A stretch of DNA of 64,000 nucleotides, from assembly GCA_024695475.1 (NCBI GenBank), contig JAILIC010000087.1, forward strand, positions 1 to 64,000, given 5' to 3'. This document shows, piece after piece, positions 1-1,106 of this stretch (positions are counted from its first letter, which is position 1; each line of letters begins with the position of its first letter). This DNA is from Treponema sp. (GTDB taxonomy: Bacteria; Spirochaetota; Spirochaetia; Treponematales; Treponemataceae). The notes beneath the pieces were generated by a model. That model did not search any database, had not been told where the DNA came from, and saw only the letters and a program-made list of their open reading frames with translations. A program made the translations under genes and the position numbers.

Positions 1-416
1 TGTTTTTTTCCTTAACTAAAAGGTCGTCTTAAACGGAGATGTGCTCAAGTCCCCGTTTTATTTGAAAGCGTGAAAAGAAGCGCGAGTAGAATTGCAAGAA
101 GAGTTGTGAATCTAGCTGCAAAATGTGCATGATGTGTAAGGTGTTCTTTCAAATTGAAGTAATGTGTTTTCATGTAAGCCTCTGTTGAATAGTCAGGTAA
201 AGCTCTCAATGCTTTCTTTGTACGTAACCTTTTTTATTTTAACACGGATTTTTGTTTTCGAAAAAGGAATTTTTTTCGGTGTGAATTGGTATGAATCTAA
301 GTTATGCTCAAAAATATTCCGCGATGAAAGAAAAATTTTCCATTTTTTACAACCCACCTTATAATTTAATCGTCTAGATAAGCTAGATAAGAAAAATAAA
401 CGTGGGGGATTTTATT
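1..416. other. left-edge region without a supported gene
   Basis: No coding region is supported here. A 66-codon frame at 164-364 begins with GTG, has no ribosome binding site and reads as low-complexity F/I/L-rich sequence, so I leave it out. The stretch holds a weak hairpin near the left end and the leader of the first small peptide gene, whose only ribosome-binding-like sequence is GGGGG at 404-408. Confidence 0.5.
31..64 (+). terminator. weak terminator-like hairpin
   Basis: AAACGG at 31-36 pairs with CCGTTT at 53-58, followed by TTATTT. It could end a gene that lies off the left edge. The stem is only six pairs, so confidence is low. Confidence 0.3.
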
Positions 417-601
417 ATGGAACTTACAGGAAAATTAAAAAAGACGTAGCAAAATGCAAATCACGCGAAGAAGCAAAAAGCAAAATTGAAGAAGCCGGCA
501 TTGTATTGAGCGACGATGAACTTGATTCAGTTGCCGGCGGCGCGTACCGCTGCAATGCACTAGTACATCCCGATTCAAAAAGTCGCCGCCGCAAGTTCTA
601 A
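417..601 (+). pseudogene. leader-peptide copy 1, frameshifted at an A-rich slippery site
   Basis: Read straight through, this gives a nine-codon start, then T and a TAG at 447-449. Shifting back one base at 437-443 restores the whole frame to the TAA at 599-601, giving a 61-residue peptide that aligns end to end with copy 2: leader with DELDSVAGG, then a 19-residue tail ending SRRRKF. The shift point is exactly the heptamer A AAA AAG in the zero frame. It may be a real one-base deletion, a base-calling error in a run of six A, or a programmed or transcriptional slippage site; the sequence alone cannot decide. The tail contains one cysteine. No modification enzyme lies next to it. Confidence 0.65.
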
Positions 602-612
602 GGAGGAACATT

Positions 613-801
613 ATGGAATTGACAGGAAAACTTAAAGAAGACGTAGCAAAGTGCGAAACTCGAGATGATGCTAAAAATAAAATAGAAGAAGCCGGTATTG
701 TATTGAACGACGAAGAGCTTGATTCTGTTGCGGGCGGATATTGGGTGCGAAAGCCTAAGCCTAATCCATCTGACATCGAAACGCGTCGCCGCTTGTTCTA
801 A
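613..801 (+). CDS. small double-glycine (Nif11-like) leader peptide, intact copy
   Basis: A 62-residue peptide with AGGAGG at 601-606, seven bases before ATG. Residues 1-41 form a charged, helical leader ending EELDSVAGG, the pattern of Nif11-type leaders and other peptides cut after Gly-Gly by C39-type export peptidases. The 21-residue remainder is rich in K, R and P and ends RRRLF, with no Cys, so lanthionine or thioether chemistry is not expected for this core. It is the only unbroken one of three tandem copies. What it does is unknown: a precursor for a modified or secreted peptide is the best guess from the leader. No cognate peptidase, transporter or modifying enzyme is adjacent. Confidence 0.65.
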   Translation: MELTGKLKEDVAKCETRDDAKNKIEEAGIVLNDEELDSVAGGYWVRKPKPNPSDIETRRRLF

Positions 802-812
802 GTAGGAACATT

Positions 813-1004
813 ATGGAATTGACAGGAAAACTTAAAGAAGATGTAGCATAGTGCAAAACTCTCGATGAGGCAAAAAAGAAAATCGAGGAAGCTGGAGCTA
901 TCTTAAATGATGATGAGCTTGATGCTGTAACTGGAGGAACTGATTCGTTTCCAAAGAAGCCAAAGAGCAAACAAGATGGACCACACGGAATTGTTTTCAT
1001 GTAA
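813..1004 (+). pseudogene. leader-peptide copy 3, interrupted by an amber codon
   Basis: It starts with the same dozen codons as copy 2, but codon 13 (849-851) is TAG where copy 2 has AAG (Lys), a single base change. Beyond it the frame stays open to TAA at 1002-1004 and encodes leader-like DDELDAVTGG followed by a diverged 22-residue tail without the RRR motif. The ribosome binding site has also weakened (AGTAGGAA). Together these point to a decaying copy. Confidence 0.7.
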
Positions 1005-1057: not shown

Positions 1058-1106
1058 AAACCCCGTGTTTCGGTATTTTTTTCCGAAGTGCGGGGTTTTC
1101 TGTTTT
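1058..1106 (+). terminator. terminator after the leader-peptide array
   Basis: AAACCCCG (1058-1065) pairs with CGGGGTTT (1091-1098), and an inner TTTCGG/CCGAA pairing continues the stem. A T-rich tail (TTCTGTTTTTG) follows. Confidence 0.75.

Follow-up and report, generated by a model that had tools for sequence, protein, structure and literature searches.

A partly pseudogenised array of double-glycine, bacteriocin/RiPP-type precursors in a Treponema genome, probably the relic of an exported-peptide cassette

Three short tandem units lie near one end of a draft contig from a rumen-type Treponema, and they raise the question of whether they encode a working family of exported peptides or the remains of one. 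We analysed the 64,000-nucleotide stretch that contains them (the window). The first position of the window is a contig end, 417 bases from the array, and the genome is a fragmented draft of 172 contigs; the lesions described below could in principle be assembly errors, and missing genes could in principle lie beyond the contig end. The original prediction had described a conserved, Nif11-like Gly-Gly leader with variable tails and interruptions in copies 1 and 3, and had read the units as a bacteriocin- or RiPP-like family in decay or varied by duplication. The three units were found on the forward strand at 417-601, 613-801 and 813-1004, with the predicted architecture and with both interruptions in place. 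They form a 160-nt direct repeat in three copies spaced by about 200 nt, the outer two being 63% and 81% identical to the middle copy, and in each a 42-residue leader with a Gly-Gly end precedes a variable tail. Unit 2 is intact: preceded by AGGAGG at 601-606, its 62-residue ORF consists of a 42-residue leader with an AGG end (MELTGKLKEDVAKCETRDDAKNKIEEAGIVLNDEELDSVAGG) and a 20-residue core (YWVRKPKPNPSDIETRRRLF). Unit 1 (core AYRCNALVHPDSKSRRRKF) is frameshifted in the leader; compared with its relatives it is short by one base, and the frame opened by ATG at 417 is therefore closed after 10 codons by TAG at 447-449. Past the frameshift, the leader frame of unit 1 is open up to 601, and its core is matched by that of an intact unit 1 (AYRCKSLVHPDSEGRRRKF) in an array of another Treponema species (locus L034, genome G176). 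Unit 3, with a leader ending in VTGG, is interrupted by TAG at codon 13 (849-851) but by no other stop up to 1004; its ribosome site is altered to AGTAGG (801-806). A reading of TAG as a sense codon was rejected, as 7 of 46 ORFs of at least 150 aa end in TAG (mechanically called ORFs, indicative only). When the genome was searched with unit 2, units 1 and 3 were recovered at E=3e-15 and 1e-16, and the best relatives in other genomes reached E=1.7e-23; these values exclude a chance resemblance of the units. A strong stem-loop 3' of unit 3 (1058-1098, forward strand; 16 pairs, -22.1 kcal/mol, z -3.8) is the probable terminator of the array transcript. An Rfam search of the window gave no match.

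The leader has the features of a substrate for C39 peptidases. Leu(-12), Glu(-8) and Leu(-7), the recognition consensus of ComA/C39 peptidase-transporters (PMC6363468), precede Gly-Gly in unit 2 (LNDEELDSVAGG) and unit 1 (LSDDELDSVAGG). The three residues are nearly invariant across the family alignment, in which conservation ends at Gly-Gly and the cores vary; both the double-glycine pattern, Gly-Gly (or GA/GS) after these residues, and the conserved-leader, variable-core pattern are thus present. The epithet 'Nif11-like' holds for the last ~20 leader residues and fails for the remainder. Unit 2 scores 12.0 bits against the formal Nif11 model TIGR03798 (cut-off 32.3), aligned to model positions 50-68, and the best score among 28 family members was E=3.8e-6. 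Comparison with Treponema Nif11 leaders by hhalign gave 94% probability, over 30 columns adjoining Gly-Gly only. Unit 2 had no match in Pfam, and neither it nor the family passed any curated NCBIfam or Pfam cut-off.

Clear members of the family (E <1e-5) occur in 10 of 200 genomes of the genus, the window's own genome counted. A GTDB scan yielded 12 loci, seven in Treponema or other spirochaete assemblies and five in Lachnospiraceae, and rumen or reticulum samples are named in several of the titles. A phylum-wide profile search of 393 genomes, mostly other, higher-quality genomes that leave out most of the carriers among the 200, added two carriers only, both weak. In most relatives, short free-standing ORFs that share the leader and differ in the core are arranged in tandem, in line with diversification by duplication. 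That the homologs are small independent ORFs and not parts of unrelated longer proteins, and that intact relatives exist, were two points on which the original prediction depended. Broken units are present also in the arrays of L038, L040, L039 and L011, so unit loss is common in the family. One Lachnospiraceae array (L040, 9441-14600) comprises ten or so related short precursors, with the exporter gene absent from the fetched DNA. A plasmid search gave no match; phage carriage was considered and set aside, the viral contigs containing no relatives and hence giving no sign of it.

The C39 peptidase-transporters that the original prediction proposed to seek beside such leaders were found in four Treponema loci. 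In L033, L034, L036 and L037, genes for an ECF-type sigma factor, HlyD, a C39 peptidase-ABC protein and a second ABC protein adjoin the array. The linked genes match the NHLM exporter set (TIGR03794, TIGR03796 and TIGR03797), the same exporter that Haft et al. (2010) tied to NHLP and Nif11 precursors (PMC2887384). The exporter is present in 7 of 10 array carriers versus 19 of 186 other genomes of the genus (Fisher p=3e-5, for genomes that are related and not independent). In two array-carrying genomes, G145 and G058, no exporter was detected, and none was found within the fetched DNA around the Lachnospiraceae arrays. The earlier statement that the window lacks processing genes is correct but misleading, given its start at a contig end and the presence of one complete NHLM exporter on another contig of the same genome (C105), unlinked to the array. 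The C105 exporter scores above the TIGR03796, TIGR03794 and TIGR03797 cut-offs. Its C39 protein reaches 1058.7 bits against the TIGR03796 cut-off of 853.3, matches PF03412 at E=2e-39 and keeps the catalytic residues in ECG, NHF and NDP. The genome holds further precursors: those on contig C137 are of true Nif11 type, while C61 carries both NHLP-like and Nif11 precursors along with a radical-SAM-like gene; a radical SAM enzyme also lies near Nif11 precursors in L036, and modification enzymes do not consistently adjoin the arrays. As the original prediction had supposed in broad terms, the family is a putative bacteriocin/RiPP-type double-glycine precursor family; its resemblance to Nif11/NHLP is confined to the cleavage-site region, and its products may be plain bacteriocins or RiPPs (modified). 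The window array is a partly pseudogenised member of a new subfamily of an already known kind, the double-glycine peptides with an NHLM exporter.

Two further observations concern these loci. In the exporter operon, a DUF7005 protein, possibly a peptidase or tailoring enzyme given its HExxH motif (HESTH/HESAH), is encoded directly before HlyD on C105 (L063, 8712-9644) and in L036 (933-1718). On C137 (L077, 9376-16718), a Nif11-like precursor lies interspersed among glycosyltransferase genes, and the promoter signature described next occurs at L077 16505-16532; together these may form a glycosylated peptide system.

A signature, CCCGTTTT-N10-YGTCTAAATA, recurs ahead of Treponema arrays and of other precursor genes in this genus. 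When no more than one mismatch was allowed, it gave 13 matches in ten genomes, all within precursor loci; one of these (G069 C27:3110) is not followed directly by a precursor ORF, and another stands ahead of a glycosyltransferase-precursor operon on C137. Allowing up to two mismatches, the real pattern gave 19 matches and the reversed pattern four. The window retains a degenerate form at 353-380 on the forward strand (CCCACCTT-N10-CGTCTAGATA), which has four mismatches and was missed at up to three; its eight-base promoter box carries three changes, in surroundings ~95% identical to L034. A search for sigma-70 promoters yielded a single weak site (337-365), a lower number than shuffled sequences gave. 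The signature resembles ECF promoters. Because an ECF-type sigma gene is also linked to the arrays, it is likely that this sigma factor drives the precursors through the signature. If so, the transcript 5' end should lie just downstream of CGTCTAAATA. The signature itself is a simple means of finding further precursor loci in Treponema.

How did the cassette come to stand where it does? The upstream non-coding region (107-416, forward strand) is shared with the L034 array: similarity starts near 102-110, and window positions 117-382 are identical to L034 at 252 of 264 positions (95.5%). Between the same two genomes, a ParC/GyrA-like protein is 73% identical and the exporter C39 domain 67%. Non-coding identity of 95.5% against protein identity of 73% points to a recent horizontal transfer of the cassette. 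Downstream of the array, the reverse strand carries the remnant of a second small-peptide gene (1133-1261), 87% identical in nucleotides to L034 10694-10811; it encodes 42 aa versus 68 aa in L034, its 5' half and promoter being lost. Similarity to the cassette stops abruptly at ~1260 (junction 1255-1269), and a short EamA-type transporter gene follows on the reverse strand (1269-1697). In L034 the promoter of the second gene comes next on this side, followed by the sigma-exporter operon, whereas the window has EamA and no exporter genes; EamA relatives occur in many other contexts without the array. The simplest reading of the junction is a rearrangement that cut the array from the operon.

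The neighbouring sequences have features of their own. The second small-peptide family shows the pattern FDY..F.PN..L....LSAAG, matches no Pfam or NCBIfam model and adjoins precursor loci in L034 (10689-10895), L036 (1726-1941), L039 (3587-3790), L076 (11185-11394) and L077 (7667-7900); the promoter signature lies upstream of its gene in L034. Copies of the EamA gene from several Treponema species show 84-89% DNA identity; their gene neighbourhoods differ and contig ends are often close by, a pattern suggestive of frequent horizontal transfer. Tandem 22-nt repeats with AAAATGTAAACAATTA at 1858-1945 are possibly an insertion-sequence end, and positions 2143-2883 encode an HU-like DNA-binding domain fused to DUF4469 (PF14848, PF14734).

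We consider it probable that the array descends from a cassette, acquired by horizontal transfer, that encoded exported double-glycine peptides of the bacteriocin/RiPP type, and that it is now a decaying relic cut from its sigma-exporter operon. In intact relatives, one short transcript with a ribosome site per unit would yield several precursors with one leader and different cores. The linked ECF-type sigma factor would probably drive them from the shared signature, the C39 domain of the NHLM exporter would cut after Gly-Gly, and the transporter (C39-ABC, second ABC, HlyD) would export the cores, which may be antibacterial. A rearrangement at ~1260 would have separated the window cassette from the sigma-exporter operon; damage to units 1 and 3, to the promoter and to the adjacent small-peptide gene would have come before it, after it or in parallel. 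The dN/dS of the leader is near 0.12 (0.03-0.14 with the broken units of the window counted in), and the breaks should therefore be recent, with selection held until recently. Unit 2 could still yield a precursor, which the C105 exporter could process in trans. The decay that the original prediction considered is thus borne out for the window copy by the broken frames, the altered promoter box and the truncated neighbour.

The same low dN/dS and the otherwise open frames would also fit a locus that still functions, in which errors of the draft assembly account for the breaks, and all three units are expressed and served in trans by the C105 exporter. The genome is indeed a draft with a complete exporter and other precursor loci, and such precursors have been reported far from their export genes (PMC2887384). 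This reading, however, has to accommodate the coincidence of independent lesions, namely a frameshift, a nonsense codon, promoter-box changes, a weakened ribosome site, a truncated neighbour and an exporter-less junction, and the broken units in other arrays make loss normal for the family; we regard it as unlikely. Still less credit can be given to the idea that the units are small proteins with an intracellular or regulatory role whose likeness to double-glycine leaders is accidental. The failure to pass any curated family cut-off speaks for it; against it stand the end of conservation at Gly-Gly, the variable cores, the recognition consensus, and the adjacency to and co-occurrence with C39 peptidase-exporters. 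Least credible of all is a dosage-regulating rescue of unit 1 by -1 ribosomal frameshifting, and of unit 3 perhaps by readthrough: an A AAA AAG heptamer does lie in the right phase at the break (437-443, forward strand; a weak, hypothetical site where a -1 slip would re-enter the leader frame), of a class, A_AA.A_AA.G, among the most shift-prone in E. coli when stimulators are present (PMC4066793), but no stimulatory structure follows it (z 0.09), unstimulated motifs do not exceed about ten times a 0.055% background (PMC4066793), the orthologous L034 unit 1 lacks the heptamer, and nothing comparable accounts for unit 3.

Beyond the decaying relic, a wider and rather tentative picture can be drawn, in which rumen treponemes share a modular library of double-glycine peptides horizontally, dedicated ECF-type sigma factors co-regulate unlinked loci through one signature, and orphan arrays use a general NHLM exporter elsewhere while gaining or losing peptides unit by unit. 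The window offers an example of how arrays may die in this piecemeal way once cut from the operon. As the family has no Pfam or NCBIfam model, annotation pipelines miss its members. Bacteriocin-like and RiPP-like systems of spirochaetes are little described; our literature searches returned T. denticola and T. pallidum papers, none on this peptide family.

Among known systems, the model of the CTB family bacteriocins (NF038167) weakly matches the leader end in 23 of the 28 members of the window family; the window unit scores 14.8 bits, below the cut-off of 32. Described Treponema double-glycine proteins are likewise tandemly duplicated upstream of a C39-ABC exporter and an HlyD-like partner, and their products appear in culture supernatant. 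By their description they are, unlike the window units, 167-614 residues long, have Gly-Gly at residues 17-18 and are paired with lipoprotein genes; bactericidal activity was not detected for them. NHLP/Nif11 (N11P) precursors (TIGR03793, TIGR03798; PMC2887384) share with the family a conserved Gly-Gly leader, a hypervariable core, multiple paralogs, the same three-gene exporter (by linkage and by co-occurrence) and the location of some precursors away from the export genes. The window family differs in its shorter leader (42 versus about 70-83 residues), in similarity limited to the last ~20 residues and below the TIGR03798 cut-off, in the lack of a consistently linked modification enzyme, and in its linked ECF-type sigma factor and shared promoter signature. 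LahA1-9 of Lachnospiraceae C6A11 (PMC6363468) are Nif11-type lanthipeptide precursors in a lanthipeptide operon, whereas no such operon is linked to the window family. The design is nevertheless alike, with several precursors that combine one double-glycine leader with divergent cores and are cut by a single tolerant C39 peptidase-transporter, LahT (PMC6363468), and rumen Lachnospiraceae also carry relatives of the window family.
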